A DNA stretch of 64,000 nucleotides. Origin: Streptomyces showdoensis (GTDB taxonomy: Bacteria > Actinomycetota > Actinomycetes > Streptomycetales > Streptomycetaceae). The notes below the pieces were generated by a model that did no database searches, was not told where the DNA came from, and worked only from the letters and a program-made list of their open reading frames with translations. Positions 35,141 through 41,281 of this stretch are shown here, in pieces; the first letter of the stretch is position 1; every line of letters starts with the position of its first letter. Both the position numbers and the translations under genes were made by a program. The DNA is taken from contig NZ_BAAAXG010000012.1 of the NCBI RefSeq assembly GCF_039535475.1, positions 372,001 through 436,000 on the forward strand. The letters are read 5' to 3'.

Positions 35141-35935
35141 GTGGCAGACGATTCGAGAACATCAGACAAGCACGCATTCGGGTCGTACGCGGCGATCGGT
35201 GACAGCTTCACGGAGGGCGTCGGTGACCCCGGGCCCGACGGGACGTACGTCGGATGGGCGGACAGGTTCGCGGTCCTCCTCGCCGACCAGCTGCCGGAGA
35301 ACGACGCCTTCCGCTACGCCAACCTGGCGGTGCGGGGGCGCCTTCTGGACCAGATCGTCGCGGAGCAGGTCCCCCGGGCGAAGGAACTCGCCCCCGACCT
35401 GGTGACCTTCTGCGCCGGCGGCAACGACATCATCCGCCCCGGCACCGACCCCGACGACGTGGCCGAGCGCTTCGAGCGCGCCGTCGCCGACCTGACCTCC
35501 GCCGTGGGCACCGTCATGGTGACGACCGGCTTCGACACGCGCGACGTGCCCGTCCTGAAGCACCTGCGCGGCAAGATCGCCACCTACACCGCCCACGTCC
35601 GGGCCATCGCGGACCGCTACGACTGCCCGGTGCTCGACCTGTGGTCGCTGAAGTCCGTCCAGGACCGGCGGGCCTGGGACGACGACCGGCTCCACCTGTC
35701 CGCCGAGGGGCACACCCGGGTCGCGCTGCGCGCCGCCCAGGTCCTCGGACTGCCGGTGCCGGCCGACCCGGACCAGCCGTGGCCGCCGCAGCCGCCCCGC
35801 GGCACGCTGGAGGTCCGCAAGGACGACATCCACTGGGCGAAGGAGTACCTGGTGCCCTGGATCGGGCGCCGGCTGCGCGGCGAGAGCTCCGGGGACCACG
35901 TCGAGGCCAAGCGCCCCGACCTCATGCCCCTGTAG
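35141..35935 (+). CDS. SGNH/GDSL hydrolase
   Basis: 264 residues with all four SGNH blocks: IGDSFTEG (nucleophile Ser near 22), the Gly block near NLAVRGRLLDQI, CAGGNDI (Asn), and DRLHLSAEGH (Asp and His). No signal peptide, so a cytoplasmic esterase or lipase. GTG at 35141, with GGAAGG about 12 bases upstream. The region before it (35090-35125) contains an imperfect inverted repeat TCCTTACGG/CCGTAAAGGA. It converges on the STM4011-type gene, whose stop overlaps its end by 14 bp. Confidence 0.93.
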   Translation: MADDSRTSDKHAFGSYAAIGDSFTEGVGDPGPDGTYVGWADRFAVLLADQLPENDAFRYANLAVRGRLLDQIVAEQVPRAKELAPDLVTFCAGGNDIIRPGTDPDDVAERFERAVADLTSAVGTVMVTTGFDTRDVPVLKHLRGKIATYTAHVRAIADRYDCPVLDLWSLKSVQDRRAWDDDRLHLSAEGHTRVALRAAQVLGLPVPADPDQPWPPQPPRGTLEVRKDDIHWAKEYLVPWIGRRLRGESSGDHVEAKRPDLMPL

Positions 35936-36788
35936 GGGCCCCGGGCGGACCGGCCGGGATCCGCTCCAGGACGCCGCCGGCGAACACGTCGTACAGCGGC
36001 AGCGTCTCCAGGTGGACGTAGCCGATGTGGCAGTCGCAAACGGCCAGCGGGCAGGACCGGGGGCGCAGCGCGGCCCGGTACGAGCCGTCGTAGAGGTTGC
36101 CGAGCTCGGCCCGTACGAAGTGGCAGCGCCGCACCGTCCCGTCGCCGTCCACCGAGACGACCGACTCGCCGGTGCGGCAGGGCAGCCCCGCCGAGCGGTG
36201 CGGATGCCTGCTGTACGGGAAGAGGGGGTCGAGGGCCGTCCAGTCCCCGGCCTCCTCGTCGGTGTAGGTGTGGCCCTCGGCCGCGTTCACCCACAGGTAG
36301 ACGCCCGCCGGGAGCTCGGCGCGCAGCCGCCGGGCGGCGGCCAGGTGGCCCGGGAGGCCGACGATCCCGACGCTGAACCGGATCCCCCGCGCCGCGAGCG
36401 CGCGGCACTTGCCGAGGAACCGCTCGTACGGGGTCTGGCCCGGGTGGTAGGTGCACCAGAGCGCCACCGTGTCCGGGTCGGCCTCGTCCAGCCACTCCGT
36501 GCGGCAGCTCAGGTTGGTCTGGATCGCCACCCGCTCCACGTGCGGCAGCCGGGAGAGCTCGACCAGCGCCCGCCGGTACCAGGACCGCACCAGGCCCTCG
36601 CCCCACGGGGTGAAGAGGATCCGCAGCCGGTCCTCCCGCCGCTCCGCCGCCCAGTGCGCGAAGCGCTCCAGGGCGGCCCGGTCCGCGGTCAGCGCCGCGC
36701 GGCTGTCGCGGCGCTTGGCGAAGGGGCAGTACGGGCAGTCGTAGTCGCAGGAGGCCAGCGGGCCCCGGTACAGCAGGGTCAGATCCAT
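35922..36788 (-). CDS. STM4011 family radical SAM protein
   Basis: 288 residues. Cluster motif CDYDCPYC (Cys 14, 18, 21) near the start, TPWGEGLVRSWYR, and a Cys-rich C-terminal part (PCRTG, RRCHF, SCPLAVCDCHIG) that could bind an auxiliary Fe-S cluster. Last gene of the five-gene STM4011-4015 operon, 11 bp after the STM4012-type gene. ATG at 36788 with GGAG six bases upstream. Radical SAM chemistry is sure from the motif; substrate and product are not known to me. Its 3' end overlaps the convergent GDSL gene by 14 bp. Confidence 0.9.
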   Translation of the reverse strand: MDLTLLYRGPLASCDYDCPYCPFAKRRDSRAALTADRAALERFAHWAAERREDRLRILFTPWGEGLVRSWYRRALVELSRLPHVERVAIQTNLSCRTEWLDEADPDTVALWCTYHPGQTPYERFLGKCRALAARGIRFSVGIVGLPGHLAAARRLRAELPAGVYLWVNAAEGHTYTDEEAGDWTALDPLFPYSRHPHRSAGLPCRTGESVVSVDGDGTVRRCHFVRAELGNLYDGSYRAALRPRSCPLAVCDCHIGYVHLETLPLYDVFAGGVLERIPAGPPGAPTGA

Positions 36789-36799
36789 CCCGTGCTCCG

Positions 36800-38179
36800 C
36801 TACTTCGCCTCGTACGCGGCCATCGCCGCCCGCACCGCCGGGGAGAACAGCTCGGGGCCGAGCCCGTCCGAGTGCGCCAGGCCCTCCGGGGAGAGCCGCA
36901 GCAGCCCGCCGGGCGCGTCCCCGTCCAGCCAGCCCAGCGCCTCGAAGCGGGCCAGTTCGGCCGGGAAGTCCGCGAAGGGCGAGGTGCCGAAGCGGGCCGC
37001 GTAGTCGGCCGTCTCCATGCCCTGGGCCTGGAGCAGCGACTGCAGCAGATGGCGGCGGCGCGCCTCGTCCGCGTCGGTCCACCGGCCCACCTCCGCCCGG
37101 GAGAAGTCCGCCGTCCCGGTGTAGGCGTCGATGATCGAGCGGATCTCGCGCATCCCGACCGCGTAGTCGAAGGAGTAGTGCAGCCGCGAGGTGTACGAGC
37201 GGGCGCCGCAGCCCAGGCCGATCATGCCGTCCGTCTGGCAGGCGTGGTCGTCGGGGCCGAGCGCCGGCGCGTCCGTACGGCGGAACATGCGCATCGACAC
37301 CTGCGTGTAGCCGCGGGCGAGGAGGTGGTCCCGGCCGTACCGGTAGAGCCGCAGCCGCTGCTCGTCCCACTCCCGGTCGGCGTCCTGCCCGGGGGCCTGC
37401 CGGCCGAGACCGGTGAGCGGGCGGACGTACAGCGGGTAGAGGTAGAGCTCCTCGGGCTCCCAGTGGAGCGCGGCGTCGAGCGAGCGGCGCCAGGACTCCT
37501 CGGTCTGGCCGTCGATGCCGTAGATCAGGTCGATGTTGAGGACCGGGACGCCGGTGTCCCGGATGCGGCCGAGGGCGGCCTCGACGTCCGCCCGGCGCTG
37601 CGGTCGCACGGCGGCCCGGGCCTCCGCCTCGACGAAGCTCTGCACGCCGATGCTCAGCCGGGTCGCGCCCCGCTCGGCGAGGACCGCGAGCCGGTCGGCG
37701 GTCGCCGTGGCCGGGGAGGTCTCCACGGACAGCGGCACCGCCCGCAGGTCCGCCCCCATCCGCCGCTCGGCGATGTCGCAGAGCCGCTCCAGTTCGGCGG
37801 CGGTCAGGTACGTGGGCGTGCCCCCGCCGAAGGCGGCCGTGGCGAACCGCACCGGAGCCGCGTCCCCCAGCGCCTCGCGCACCGCCGCGGCCTGCCGGTC
37901 CAGCGCGTCGAGATAGCGGGTGGTCAGCTCGCCCGGGGCGCCGATCCGGGTGAAGAGGTTGCAGAAGCCGCAGCGGACCTCGCAGAAGGGTATGTGGGCG
38001 TAGAGCGACAGCGCGTCCTTCGGCTCGTCCGCCCAGAGCGCGGCGAGCGGGGCCCGCTCGGACAGCGGACGGTAGGCCGTCTTGTGCGGGTAGGCGTAGA
38101 CGTAGCTGCGGTACGGGCGCGGGGTCCCGGCCGGGCGGGTCGTGCGGGTCGCGCGGGTCGGCGGGGTCGTGCGGGTCAT
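36800..38179 (-). CDS. STM4012 family radical SAM protein (HemN-like)
   Basis: 459 residues. After a Thr/Arg-rich head (MTRTTPPTRATRTTRP, encoded by a repeat) come YAHIPFCEVRCGFCNLF (Cys 66, 70, 73), GGGTPTYL, and RLSIGVQSF, all as in HemN/HemW coproporphyrinogen dehydrogenase relatives, with a HemN-type C-terminal helical domain. It lacks adjacent haem genes and belongs to the STM4012 branch, so it is probably not a haem enzyme; a methyltransferase- or chaperone-like role is possible. ATG at 38179 overlaps the STM4013 stop by four bases. Confidence 0.9.
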   Translation of the reverse strand: MTRTTPPTRATRTTRPAGTPRPYRSYVYAYPHKTAYRPLSERAPLAALWADEPKDALSLYAHIPFCEVRCGFCNLFTRIGAPGELTTRYLDALDRQAAAVREALGDAAPVRFATAAFGGGTPTYLTAAELERLCDIAERRMGADLRAVPLSVETSPATATADRLAVLAERGATRLSIGVQSFVEAEARAAVRPQRRADVEAALGRIRDTGVPVLNIDLIYGIDGQTEESWRRSLDAALHWEPEELYLYPLYVRPLTGLGRQAPGQDADREWDEQRLRLYRYGRDHLLARGYTQVSMRMFRRTDAPALGPDDHACQTDGMIGLGCGARSYTSRLHYSFDYAVGMREIRSIIDAYTGTADFSRAEVGRWTDADEARRRHLLQSLLQAQGMETADYAARFGTSPFADFPAELARFEALGWLDGDAPGGLLRLSPEGLAHSDGLGPELFSPAVRAAMAAYEAK

Positions 38180-39024
38180 GCGGTCTTCTCCATGCTGTCC
38201 GGGCCAGGCAGGATGAAATGTGCATACGGCACATTCCATACGCTCTCATGGCCCAGCCGGTGCCCGGTGAAGCCGTCCTCCCCGTACGCCGTGCCGTGGT
38301 CGGAGCAGACGACGGCGAAGCAGTCCCGGCGGCTGCTCATGGCCGCGAACAGGCGTCCGATGTGCCGGTCGACGTACTCCAGGGCGGCGGCGTGGGTGTC
38401 CCGGGTGTCGCCCGCCTCGCGGGTCGCGCCCGACCGGTGGAACCAGTTGGGCTGGTGCAGGGCCGAGACGTTGACGAAGAGGAAGAGGCGCCGGTCGCGC
38501 GGGAGCGCGGCGACGACCTCCTCGGCGCGCTCCACCTGGGACGCGAAGGAGGTCGGCGAGGCGACCCCGAACGAGGGCTCCCAGTGGCTCTCCTGGAACA
38601 GGCCGGGCAGGACCGTGCCGAGCGGCGGCAGCCGGTTGAAGAAGCCGACCCCGCCCACGCACACGGTCCGGTAGCCCTCGTGCGCCAGCGCGGACACCAG
38701 GTCGGGCGTGTCCCGGAAGACGTAGGTGCCCTCGGCGGTGGTCTCGCTGCCCGCGAACGAGGCGGCGAAGAGCCGCGGGTGCGGTCCCGGGGACGCCGGG
38801 GTGGGCAGGAAACCGGCGAAGATCGCCTGGTGGGAGGCGTAGGTGAAGCTCCCGGGCGCGTGCCGGCGCTCCCAGGCGCCGCCGGGCAGGTGCCGGGCCA
38901 GGTTCGGGATGCGGCCCTCGGCGGCGAGCTCGGCGGCCACGTCGTACCGCAGCGTGTCGAGCGTGACGAGGAGCAGATCGTGACTCCCGACGATCCGGTT
39001 CATGTCCAGCGCGGGCGGTGTCAC
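38176..39024 (-). CDS. STM4013/SEN3800 family alkaline-phosphatase-superfamily hydrolase
   Basis: 282 residues. The fold is seen in HDLLLVTLDTLRYDVA (first metal Asp and the nucleophile Thr region) and VVCSDHGTAYGEDGFTGHRLGHE (second metal site Asp-His). These enzymes hydrolyse phosphate or sulfate esters, or transfer phospho-groups. No signal peptide, so it is cytoplasmic, unlike most sulfatases. GTG at 39024 overlaps the STM4014 stop by GTGA, which decides for this start over the ATG at 39003. Part of the coupled five-gene operon. Confidence 0.88.
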   Translation of the reverse strand: MTPPALDMNRIVGSHDLLLVTLDTLRYDVAAELAAEGRIPNLARHLPGGAWERRHAPGSFTYASHQAIFAGFLPTPASPGPHPRLFAASFAGSETTAEGTYVFRDTPDLVSALAHEGYRTVCVGGVGFFNRLPPLGTVLPGLFQESHWEPSFGVASPTSFASQVERAEEVVAALPRDRRLFLFVNVSALHQPNWFHRSGATREAGDTRDTHAAALEYVDRHIGRLFAAMSSRRDCFAVVCSDHGTAYGEDGFTGHRLGHESVWNVPYAHFILPGPDSMEKTA

Positions 39025-40325
39025 GGCGTGCTCGTTCCTGTGGGTCGGGTCTCGTGGGGCTGGTGGTTCTGGTGGTTCTGGTGGTTCTGGTGGGTCTCGT
39101 GGGTTTCGCGGGTCCGGCGGAGGTCTCGGGTCCCGCGAGACTCGCGGGTCTCGGGGAGATCCCGGGTGTCGCGGGTCCGTCGGGCCGGGCGCCCCGGGTG
39201 CCCCGGTCGGCCCGGGCGGGCGGGTCGGGTACGGACGTACGCGGCGACCTGGGCCGCGTAGGTGTCCAGGCCCTCGGCCCCGCTCCCCGGCAGGCCGGTG
39301 AGACCGGGCAGCAGGTCGCCGAAGGCGTTGACCTCGCCGACCGCGAAGCGCCGCCAGCCGGCGGCGGGCAGCAGGTCGACCCCCACGCAGCGGGTGCCGG
39401 GGAAGGCCGCCGCGGCCCGCTCGCACACCTCCAGGGCGTCGGCGAACCGCCCGCCCGCGGCGGCGATCGCGGCCCGCGCCGCGTCCAGGTCTCCCCGGGC
39501 GCCGCCCAGGTGCAGGTTGGTCATGGGGGAGCGGCTGGTGCGCACGACGGCGTGGGTGGCCCGGCCGTCGACGACGACCACCCGCAGGTCGGCCGCCCGC
39601 CCGCCGAGGGAGGCCTTCGGCAGCCAGCGCTCCACGTGCAGCCCGTCCGGGGCGAGCGCGTCCACGACGGCCGCGATCTCGCGTTCGGAGGTGTAGCGGC
39701 GCACCCGCAGCGAGTTGTGCAGCCGCCCGTCGGCGCGGAGCTCGACCGAGGTGGTCGCCTGCGTCCGGCCGGAGGCGGACGTCTCCAGGGCGAGCACCCC
39801 GGAGGCCGAGGAGCCGTGAGCGAGCTTCACGAAGACCCGGCGCATCCCCGGCAGGTCCGTCAGCGCCCGGACGTCCTCCCACCCGCGCACGGGCGGGGCG
39901 GCCGGACCCGAGGTCGGCGCGGGCGGCACCGGGACCCCGGCCGCGAGGAGGCGGCCGTGCCCGAGCCGCTTGTCGAAGAGGACGGCGAGCTCGTCCGGAT
40001 CGCCGAGGAGGTCCGCGCCGGCCGACCGGACCCCGGCGGCGAGCCCGTGCGCCGCCGCCGTGAAGCGCGCGAACCAGCGCCCGGTGCCCTCGACCCGGGT
40101 CGGCTCCGGCACGCCCCGCAGCAGCCGGTCGACCTCCGGCTCCTCACCGGGGGAGTCCAGGCGCACCAGCTCCCCCGGGTGGAAGCGGGCCCCGCCCCGC
40201 AGCACGTCGAGCCACGGCACGACCCGCGGCCGGGGCAGCCCGGCGGCGAGCGCCGCGTCCAGGAAGAGCCGCACGCGGCGGCCTTCCGGGTTGCCGACGA
40301 CGGCGAGGGACGGGGCCGCGCTCAC
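39021..40325 (-). CDS. STM4014 family protein, ATP-grasp-like, with repeat tail
   Basis: 434 residues. The core (about 1-365) looks ATP-grasp-like: FDKRLGHGRLLAAGVPVPP, a VFVKLAHGSSASGVLAL Lys/Gly loop, DLRVVVVDGRATHAVVRTS, and FAVGEVNAFGDLLPG, where Glu and Asn would bind Mg. ATP-grasp enzymes join a carboxylate to an amine or thiol. The last 70 residues are a degenerate Arg/Thr/Asp then His/Gln/Asn repeat (HETHQNHQNHQNHQ), encoded by tandem DNA repeats and probably disordered. GTG at 40325 overlaps the STM4015 stop. Fold assignment is my reading of motifs. Confidence 0.85.
   Translation of the reverse strand: MSAAPSLAVVGNPEGRRVRLFLDAALAAGLPRPRVVPWLDVLRGGARFHPGELVRLDSPGEEPEVDRLLRGVPEPTRVEGTGRWFARFTAAAHGLAAGVRSAGADLLGDPDELAVLFDKRLGHGRLLAAGVPVPPAPTSGPAAPPVRGWEDVRALTDLPGMRRVFVKLAHGSSASGVLALETSASGRTQATTSVELRADGRLHNSLRVRRYTSEREIAAVVDALAPDGLHVERWLPKASLGGRAADLRVVVVDGRATHAVVRTSRSPMTNLHLGGARGDLDAARAAIAAAGGRFADALEVCERAAAAFPGTRCVGVDLLPAAGWRRFAVGEVNAFGDLLPGLTGLPGSGAEGLDTYAAQVAAYVRTRPARPGRPGHPGRPARRTRDTRDLPETRESRGTRDLRRTRETHETHQNHQNHQNHQPHETRPTGTSTP
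39050..39230. repeat. Degenerate tandem repeat encoding the STM4014 C-terminal tail
   Basis: Starts as 9-bp units (GGTTCTGGT) repeated four times near 39062-39096, then drifts to CGGGTCTCG-like units up to about 39200. It lies within the 3' end of the STM4014 gene. A related GCGGGTCG array (38125-38178) forms the first codons of the STM4012 gene. Confidence 0.8.
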
Positions 40326-41281
40326 TCGGCGACCGCCACGTACCGGTAGACCTCGCCGTCGCCCTCGTCCTCCGGCGTCTGCGGGTCGTCGAGGTCGACC
40401 GTCACCCCGTGCGGCGCGAGCGCGGCGGTCAGCCGTTCGGCCGTCTCCGGGGACAGGTAGTGGTGGGCGAGGCCGAGGCGGCGCAGATGGGTCAGCGGCT
40501 GCCCGGCGAGCAGCGCCGCCGCGCCCTCGTCGGTGAGCACGCCCATCGACAGGTCGAGTTCGTCGAGGCGGGCGACGACCGGCGCGCCGGCCACGGCCGC
40601 GGCGACCTCGTCCTGGATGTCGCTGTTGCGCAGTCCGAGCCGGCGCAGCGCGGGCAGCCGGGCCCCGGACAGCAGCGGCTCCAGGTCGGCGGGGGTCGTG
40701 TCCGCCCCGTACTCCTCGGTGCCGAGCCACAGGTCGAGCCGCTCCAGGGCGGGCAGCTCACTGGCCGCGACGCCCCGCACGACCTCGGCGCCCAGGCCGC
40801 CGCTCTCCAGCACCAGGGCGCGCAGGCCGGTGTGGTGCACGGGCGGGAAGACGAGCCCGCTGCCGCCGCGCACCCCGAGCTCCCGCAGCGCCGGGTAGGC
40901 GGCGAGCAGCGGGGTGACGTCCGACTGGATGATCCACGAGATCTCGCAGTCCTCCGAGGTCATGTCGCCGAGGAACACCGCCTCCAGGCCGGTGAGCCGG
41001 TCGTTGGCCCCGATCAGGGCCTTCACGATCGCGGCGGAGGAGGTGTCGTAGGCCTCGTCCCAGCCGCCGACGACCACGGCCCGCACCCGGGCGGTGTCCA
41101 CCGTCGCCAGGAAGCGCTCGAACAGCGGCTCCCACAGCTCGTCCTCGGGGTCGGAGTACGTCGGTGCGGAGAGCCGCCAGGCGACCGAGGCGGCGTCGGG
41201 CAGCTCGACCGTGGCGCCGGGCGCCGGGAACTCGTACACGGGCAGGCCGTGGAACTCCTGCAGGTGAACCCCAATGGTCAT
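40322..41281 (-). CDS. STM4015 family leucine-rich repeat protein
   Basis: 319 residues. The N-terminal 130 residues are mixed alpha/beta (EFHGLPVYEFPAPG). The rest shows leucine-rich repeats of the ribonuclease-inhibitor kind (LRRLGLRNSDI, LDELDLSMGVLTDEGAAALLAGQPL, LRRLGLAHHYLSPETAERL). LRRs make a curved binding surface, so this may present a protein substrate to the operon's enzymes. First gene of the operon. ATG at 41281 has GGAG five bases upstream. No signal peptide. Confidence 0.9.
   Translation of the reverse strand: MTIGVHLQEFHGLPVYEFPAPGATVELPDAASVAWRLSAPTYSDPEDELWEPLFERFLATVDTARVRAVVVGGWDEAYDTSSAAIVKALIGANDRLTGLEAVFLGDMTSEDCEISWIIQSDVTPLLAAYPALRELGVRGGSGLVFPPVHHTGLRALVLESGGLGAEVVRGVAASELPALERLDLWLGTEEYGADTTPADLEPLLSGARLPALRRLGLRNSDIQDEVAAAVAGAPVVARLDELDLSMGVLTDEGAAALLAGQPLTHLRRLGLAHHYLSPETAERLTAALAPHGVTVDLDDPQTPEDEGDGEVYRYVAVAE

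Follow-up and report, generated by a model that had tools for sequence, protein, structure and literature searches.

A conserved C-terminal glutamate tail on an LRR protein and its possible ligation by the STM4011–STM4015 operon of Streptomyces showdoensis

Among the closest described systems, LysX/ArgX–LysW and RimK join amino acids to the C-terminal Glu or the C-terminus of proteins (excerpts of PMC10433800 and PMC10092738), and LysW is a small Zn-binding Cys protein with an EDWGE tail (PMC10433800, likewise in excerpt). We analysed a window of 64,000 nucleotides from Streptomyces showdoensis (assembly GCF_039535475.1, contig NZ_BAAAXG010000012.1, positions 372,001–436,000, forward strand; coordinates below are those of the window) that carries the five-gene operon STM4015–STM4014–STM4013–STM4012–STM4011, encoding a leucine-rich repeat (LRR) protein, an ATP-grasp enzyme, a phosphoesterase-fold protein and two radical S-adenosylmethionine (SAM) enzymes. 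The set is named in databases, yet no function for it was found in the open-access literature (so that absence from print is not proved), in line with a preliminary description of this DNA that could link it to no known pathway; the whole operon is seen in five phyla, including the window's own, and STM4015 in six. Newly described here is a conserved C-terminal Glu tail of STM4015 behind an acidic linker, and the strongest new claim that we draw from it is that this Glu may be the acceptor of STM4014. With the tail, a vague association of an LRR protein with a pair of radical SAM enzymes narrows to one question, namely whether the last Glu of STM4015 is modified by STM4014. As a whole model we tentatively propose, at a little short of an even chance, that the operon is a protein-modification system with its own LRR protein as substrate or carrier, STM4014 loading the C-terminal Glu.

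The STM4015-family LRR protein (319 amino acids; 40322..41281, minus strand; 397.1 bits against an NCBIfam cut-off of 275) is the proposed substrate or carrier. It ends in the tail R313-Y-V-A-V-A-E319 (40325..40345, minus strand), in which tail conservation points to E319 as the proposed modification site, preceded by a linker enriched in Asp and Glu (about residues 298–310; 40352..40390, minus strand). Across the family the tail consensus is about R[YF]xA[VL][SGAT]E, the acidic linker varies in length (45% Asp+Glu at positions −22 to −9, against 17% across whole STM4015 proteins) and the last GAxxLL-type repeat motif, located in 122 of 163 sequences, lies 52–70 residues from the C-terminus. 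Glu at the modal end column is the exact terminus in 162 of 163 distinct STM4015 sequences, the exception being a broken open reading frame (ORF) in locus L083; a smaller first set gave terminal Glu in 156 of 157 distinct ends, and 13 of 14 clusters at 50% identity end in Glu, the exception again being the broken ORF. Six phyla are represented, five of them via twelve different sequences. Pairs of copies within a locus (n = 45, unfiltered for overlapping loci) have a mean of 56% identity overall and 5.4 of the last 7 residues in common. A search of 40 operon genomes with a DNA pattern of tail plus stop gave 37 matches, spread over 23 of them (reversed pattern, 6 matches), and all 37 were STM4015 ends; the absence of matches outside STM4015 holds for a strict pattern that found no exact match in 17 of the 40 genomes, and variant tails could therefore be missed.

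STM4014 (434 amino acids, GTG start; 39021..40325, minus strand; NF038074, 441.8 bits against a cut-off of 175) belongs to a LysX/RimK-like family of ATP-grasp ligases. Structures were predicted with AlphaFold2 (AF2) for STM4014 and STM4015, and STM4011, STM4012 and STM4013 were assigned from sequence. In the model of STM4014 residues 1–364 (predicted local distance difference test (pLDDT) score, 91.7), ATP-grasp folds rank top, and the nearest solved folds are LysX, ArgX–LysW and RimK. Residues K167, D317 and N333 are invariant among the aligned homologues (alignment A2), and the ATP-grasp metal-site motif E331-V-N333 (39327..39335, minus strand) aligns with the EVN of RimK; this motif is invariant in alignment A6 and has Glu or Asp at its first position in alignment A2. 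Behind the ATP-binding Lys, 108 of 110 STM4014 proteins carry GS[SG]A[SAG]G. By modelled fold and aligned residues, STM4014 is an ATP-grasp enzyme, in agreement with the ATP-grasp-like character suggested on first inspection of the gene, and its catalytic residues are intact. Pfam ATP-grasp models place the Salmonella homologue above three cut-offs and the window protein below all of them. A low-complexity C-terminal extension (residues 365–434; 39024..39233, minus strand) with a high content of T, R, H, N and Q is absent or different in the aligned homologues and was excluded from the fold.

The distribution of STM4015 bears on its role. Genome surveys, whose tables were compared by eye, covered Actinomycetota and 14 named control genomes. 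STM4015 and STM4011 were above cut-off in the identical 40 of 296 Actinomycetes genomes, and STM4015 above cut-off without STM4011 was not found among the 296; the 14 controls contained no STM4015, STM4014 or STM4011 above cut-off, with weak matches to STM4014 in 5 and to STM4011 in 2. Between one and five STM4015 copies stand beside a single enzyme set (five in genomes G244 and G440). Given the invariant Glu tail, this copy number and the lack of STM4015 above cut-off without STM4011, the role of STM4015 is more likely that of substrate or carrier than that of presenting another peptide. The preliminary description had the LRR protein presenting a protein or peptide for modification by the ATP-grasp and radical SAM enzymes; the presenter role gives way here, and the catalytic residues and motifs of those enzymes are present.

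Several observations weigh against an acceptor role of the tail. The tail motif is looser than the Glu itself (strict pattern R[YF]..[VLIA][SGAT]E in 146 of 163 sequences, a lax form in 156 of 163), and most of the 163 sequences come from Actinomycetes. Ends at the modal column are ragged in STM4014 (29/111), STM4013 (30/92) and STM4011 (13/104), and the end is fixed in STM4012 (87/92) and in two accessory proteins treated below, DUF6745 (69/69) and a protein of ~100 amino acids (73/74); a fixed end alone is therefore no mark of a modification site, since DUF6745, the ~100-amino-acid protein and very nearly STM4012 share it. AF2 models the STM4015 tail as ordered (pLDDT about 90). It also appears visible in a crystal of a Bacteroides fragilis member of the family, Q64V53_BACFR (PDB 2ra8; chain residues 7–357), whose native end is ...YPMITE; the tail may thus be a structural cap. 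The crystallised chain has 362 residues against 354, with eight past the Glu, presumably a tag, and its C-terminal end is therefore not free. This entry, a structural-genomics deposition titled 'uncharacterized protein', is named by no paper found in the open-access literature; STM4015 has a WGR domain at its N-terminus in Bacteroides, and to judge by these relatives the N-terminus of 2ra8 is probably WGR-type too. On the enzyme side, the best score among three STM4014 proteins against the LysX NCBIfam model was 22.5 bits (cut-off 275.6), and the three reached 20, 32 and 35.6 bits against RimK TIGR00768 (cut-off 143.4). No single LysX or RimK stretch was significant alone in the PDB profile search, in which a biotin-carboxylase stretch was; Foldseek puts the inositol-phosphate kinase PPIP5K2 second, and the small-molecule ATP-grasp folds DcsG, PurK and Ddl lie about 1–3 Z units from LysX. 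GSWGR, the motif through which ArgX/LysX recognise the tail of LysW and which presumably stands behind the ATP-binding Lys in LysX (the alignment matched only its GS), occurs in 1 of 110 STM4014 proteins, together with the usual motif.

These points could be accommodated if the operon made a small molecule or cofactor: STM4014 would ligate small substrates in free form, and the LRR protein would be a scaffold whose tail docks the enzymes or caps the fold. We consider this explanation unlikely, while giving it real weight: a cap or dock need not bar every extension past the Glu, yet 162 of 163 sequences have none, and the presence of as many as five diverged LRR copies alongside a single enzyme set suits substrates better than scaffolds. 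The latter also leads us, within the protein-modification model, to favour slightly a permanent end group over a carrier-bound intermediate.

Both radical SAM enzymes named in the preliminary description retain their CX3CX2C motifs. In STM4011 (288 amino acids; 35922..36788, minus strand; NF038073, 418.7 bits against a cut-off of 200), the CX3CX2C motif (C14, C18 and C21; 36726..36749, minus strand) is invariant in 9 of 9 aligned sequences, as are the columns of a C-terminal auxiliary-cluster set, C204-x12-G217-x4-C222 ... C246-x4-C251-x-C253 (36030..36179, minus strand). A profile search matched the protein to the C-terminal auxiliary-cluster region of SkfB (6efn; E value, 0.00023). With CX3CX2C plus CX9-15GX4C, which we take to be the SPASM/twitch signature, in 9 of 9 sequences, STM4011 is SPASM/twitch-like; the second SPASM cluster, presumably marked by CX2CX5CX3C, was not found in the nine aligned sequences, which have CX4CXC instead, and scores against PF13186 were below the cut-off of 21.5 (12.7 bits for the window protein, 18.3 for the Bacteroides one).

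STM4012 (459 amino acids; 36800..38179, minus strand; NF006067, 642.4 bits against a cut-off of 380) has its CX3CX2C motif (C66, C70 and C73; 37961..37984, minus strand) invariant in 8 of 8 aligned sequences, and its profile matches include HemN (1olt; E value, 1e-52) and the radical SAM methyltransferase NocN (9p2u; E value, 1.4e-32). As HemN is the best solved relative and several NCBIfam coproporphyrinogen oxidase models match below cut-off, STM4012 might be a coproporphyrinogen or heme enzyme in an operon that belongs to heme metabolism. The protein, however, falls below the cut-offs for HemN (TIGR00538; 130.7 against 324.95 bits) and HemW (124.6 against 205.4 bits), an alignment to HemN shows no fourth Cys of CX3CX2CXC, and the operon members include no heme genes; we give this assignment hardly any credence. 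A lone STM4012-family gene (588 bits) lies on a plasmid of Streptomyces sp. SAT1 (L194:13941-15323), ~10 kb from genes of nonribosomal peptide synthetase type; this plasmid was not among the matches listed in the STM4014 and STM4015 searches.

STM4013 (275 amino acids; 38176..39003, minus strand; NF038075, 417.4 bits against a cut-off of 250) is a member of the sulfatase/alkaline phosphatase superfamily (PF00884, 40.9 bits against a cut-off of 25), with nucleotide phosphodiesterases, then sulfatases, as best PDB profile matches. D16, T54, D235 and H236 are invariant in 8 of 8 aligned sequences, and Thr54 stands in the nucleophile place, where it may act as such. C/S-x-P-S-R, presumably the motif of formylglycine sulfatases, was not found in these eight sequences, which carry the invariant Thr54 in FT[YW][AP][AS]H. 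A Cof-type HAD hydrolase gene overlaps STM4011 in Enterobacteria, and in Bacteroides STM4011 itself carries a fused HAD domain; a second phosphatase thus accompanies the set in some lineages.

From these assignments we infer a ligation, its acceptor, an order of steps and a product. STM4014 would activate the free C-terminal Glu (E319) of STM4015 and couple it to an amino acid or another amine. STM4011, with its extra Cys cluster, and the HemN-like STM4012 would next rework either the residue so attached or the conserved tail, and STM4013, aided by the HAD hydrolase in some lineages, would remove or transfer a phosphate within this pathway. Once modified, the tail might either remain as a permanent functional end group, with the LRR region as targeting domain, or leave the protein as a small molecule, as in the LysW system. 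A fuller version of the former would be a new ribosomally encoded end group, in which the LysX/RimK-like ligase extends the LRR Glu, the two radical SAM enzymes convert the extended end into a cofactor or reactive group bound to the protein, tandem paralogues direct it to different targets, and the ~100-amino-acid protein and DUF6745 may be further substrates or readers; this we regard as conceivable but improbable.

The five-gene set is confirmed as a real, tight operon conserved well beyond chance. STM4015 and STM4014 overlap by GTGA, STM4014 and STM4013 are separated by 17 bp, STM4013 and STM4012 overlap by ATGA, and an 11-bp gap separates STM4012 and STM4011; the earlier wording of start/stop quartets or 11-bp spacing thus fits three of the four junctions, the 17-bp gap being the exception. 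Translational coupling was considered as the cause of the Glu codon, which would be forced by the GTGA/ATGA overlap with STM4014, and was rejected because STM4015 copies that do not precede STM4014 keep the Glu and both GAG and GAA are used. All five proteins pass the cut-off of their own NCBIfam family, three of which are typed 'hypoth_equivalog'. Ten neighbouring ORFs in the host genome (~8.5 Mb) were scanned against Pfam; six had matches (tyrosine phosphatase, M23 peptidase with LysM, GDSL lipase, DUF1801 (below cut-off), SIMPL and TetR), none of them operon-related, and four had none.

The order STM4015 to STM4011 is found in annotated records of Salmonella, Paenibacillus, Deinococcus (three), Methylobacterium and Streptomyces, in a Bacteroides-type contig and in Escherichia coli NRG 857C; the evidence across phyla was drawn from plasmid, E. 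coli, IMG/VR and PDB records. With four of the genes as reference, DNA similarity places the operon in 154 of 5,426 E. coli genomes. A scan of genome contigs that retained the 80 best of 536 relatives, each of them an Actinomycetes record by its title, found all five genes in 74 loci and the same order in 74 of these 74. The spread over five phyla agrees with the earlier statement that the set is kept across distant phyla. In the gene-order count, locus L083, scored with three STM4015 copies, is a broken operon of which the fragments were counted separately. Among the six incomplete loci of the 80, four reach a contig end (L053, L070, L094 and L098) and two differ: in Streptomyces sp. NRRL S-31 (L077), only STM4014 adjoins STM4011, with no STM4013 or STM4012 between, and in Streptomyces sp. 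WAC06614 (L100), STM4013 is shortened and STM4014 and STM4015 were not found in the contig.

Records of mobile and viral DNA hold further variants. A Bacteroides finegoldii plasmid record (L034:12600-13020) lacks the stretch that runs from within STM4013 into STM4012, by deletion, and retains STM4015, STM4014 and STM4011–HAD. An 18.7-kb IMG/VR contig filed as viral (L191/L192) contains an intact Bacteroides-type operon with a WGR–LRR-type STM4015 and an STM4011–HAD fusion, a few kilobases from an integrase-like ORF, and could represent either a mobile element or host DNA. Among viral contigs, STM4015 and STM4014 match only this one, and STM4011 has six weak matches (L185–L190; 21–31% identity). 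STM4015-like stretches occur in five phage records (four Salmonella, one Escherichia), none spanning 80% of the query. A Calothrix plasmid (L119:2014-3288) encodes an STM4015-like protein (259 bits, below the cut-off of 275) with a different N-terminal region and the tail ...DRYCSVAE; no operon gene was found adjoining it. The patchy spread, the plasmid copies, the tandem diverged LRR copies and the N-terminal WGR domain in Bacteroides would suit an anti-phage or stress-response module with LRR proteins as sensors. Against this, a PADLOC scan of eight proteins gave two partial matches (27.2 bits to a radical SAM domain and 19.9 bits to WGR) and the operon includes no nuclease or membrane effector, and we judge such a module very unlikely.

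In many genomes the operon set exceeds five genes, through DUF6745 and the ~100-amino-acid protein or through the Cof-type HAD hydrolase. The former two adjoin the operon on the opposite strand, both being present in 62 of the 74 complete loci, and also occur in Deinococcus and Methylobacterium (on the same strand in Methylobacterium); the ~100-amino-acid protein carries the motifs GE[VL]TGH[SA]H and H[ED]EH, and the pair was noted at L036:6363-7827, L122:6127-7749, L033:16130-17439 and others. DUF6745 is above cut-off in 29 of 296 Actinomycetes genomes, with weaker or partial matches also in operon-free genomes. Twenty of the 40 operon genomes have it at full length, and in each of these it lies no more than about 5 kb from the operon (distances by eye). 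With this adjacency and their fixed ends (at the modal column, Asp in 74 of 74 for the ~100-amino-acid protein and Thr in 66 of 69 for DUF6745, which ends in Thr or Ala), one of them might be the substrate in place of STM4015. That would leave half of the operon genomes without a full-length DUF6745, of which the window's own genome has no match at all; a six-frame profile search found neither protein beside the window operon or at the Salmonella, Paenibacillus and Bacteroides finegoldii loci, and neither is annotated near the E. coli operon. A substrate role for either is, in our estimate, quite unlikely. The lack of such a partner at the window operon is in keeping with the preliminary description, which saw no precursor peptide there; the likely precursor is the LRR protein itself. 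No short precursor peptide with a leader was seen at the window operon, where ORFs under 80 amino acids were not screened systematically.

Mentions of the set in print are sparse. In the tabulated parts of two reports, STM4015 is listed once, as a 'hypothetical protein', among the results of a positive-selection study (PMC2784778) and STM4013.S once among sigma54 binding sites (PMC3844500). PRK08208, another name of the STM4012 family, has a single occurrence in PMC11964587, and the main text of a paper on the CDC123/R2K clade of ATP-grasp enzymes (PMC4431377) contains no LRR, WGR or 'radical'.

Compared with the described systems, the operon resembles LysX/ArgX–LysW in that the ATP-grasp enzyme has a partner protein with a C-terminal Glu (162 of 163 STM4015 sequences), which would serve as acceptor. 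In contrast to LysW, STM4015 is an LRR protein rather than a small Zn protein and ends in EDWGE in none of 163 sequences, and STM4014 differs from ArgX/LysX in missing GSWGR at the corresponding place. The LysW pathway proceeds through a kinase, a reductase, an aminotransferase and a peptidase, whereas the operon has radical SAM enzymes and a phosphoesterase. From RimK and its substrate ribosomal protein S6 (RpsF), the system is set apart by STM4014 scores below TIGR00768, by the proposed dedicated LRR acceptor and by its radical SAM partners. The matches of STM4011 to the SkfB auxiliary-cluster region and of STM4012 to NocN (class C HemN-like) recall ribosomally synthesized and post-translationally modified peptides, but the candidate substrate here is a folded LRR protein of about 280–360 amino acids and not a short leader-bearing precursor. 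If the proposal is true, it would open a new branch beside LysW and RimK, in which radical SAM enzymes act on a residue bound to a carrier or at the end of a protein.

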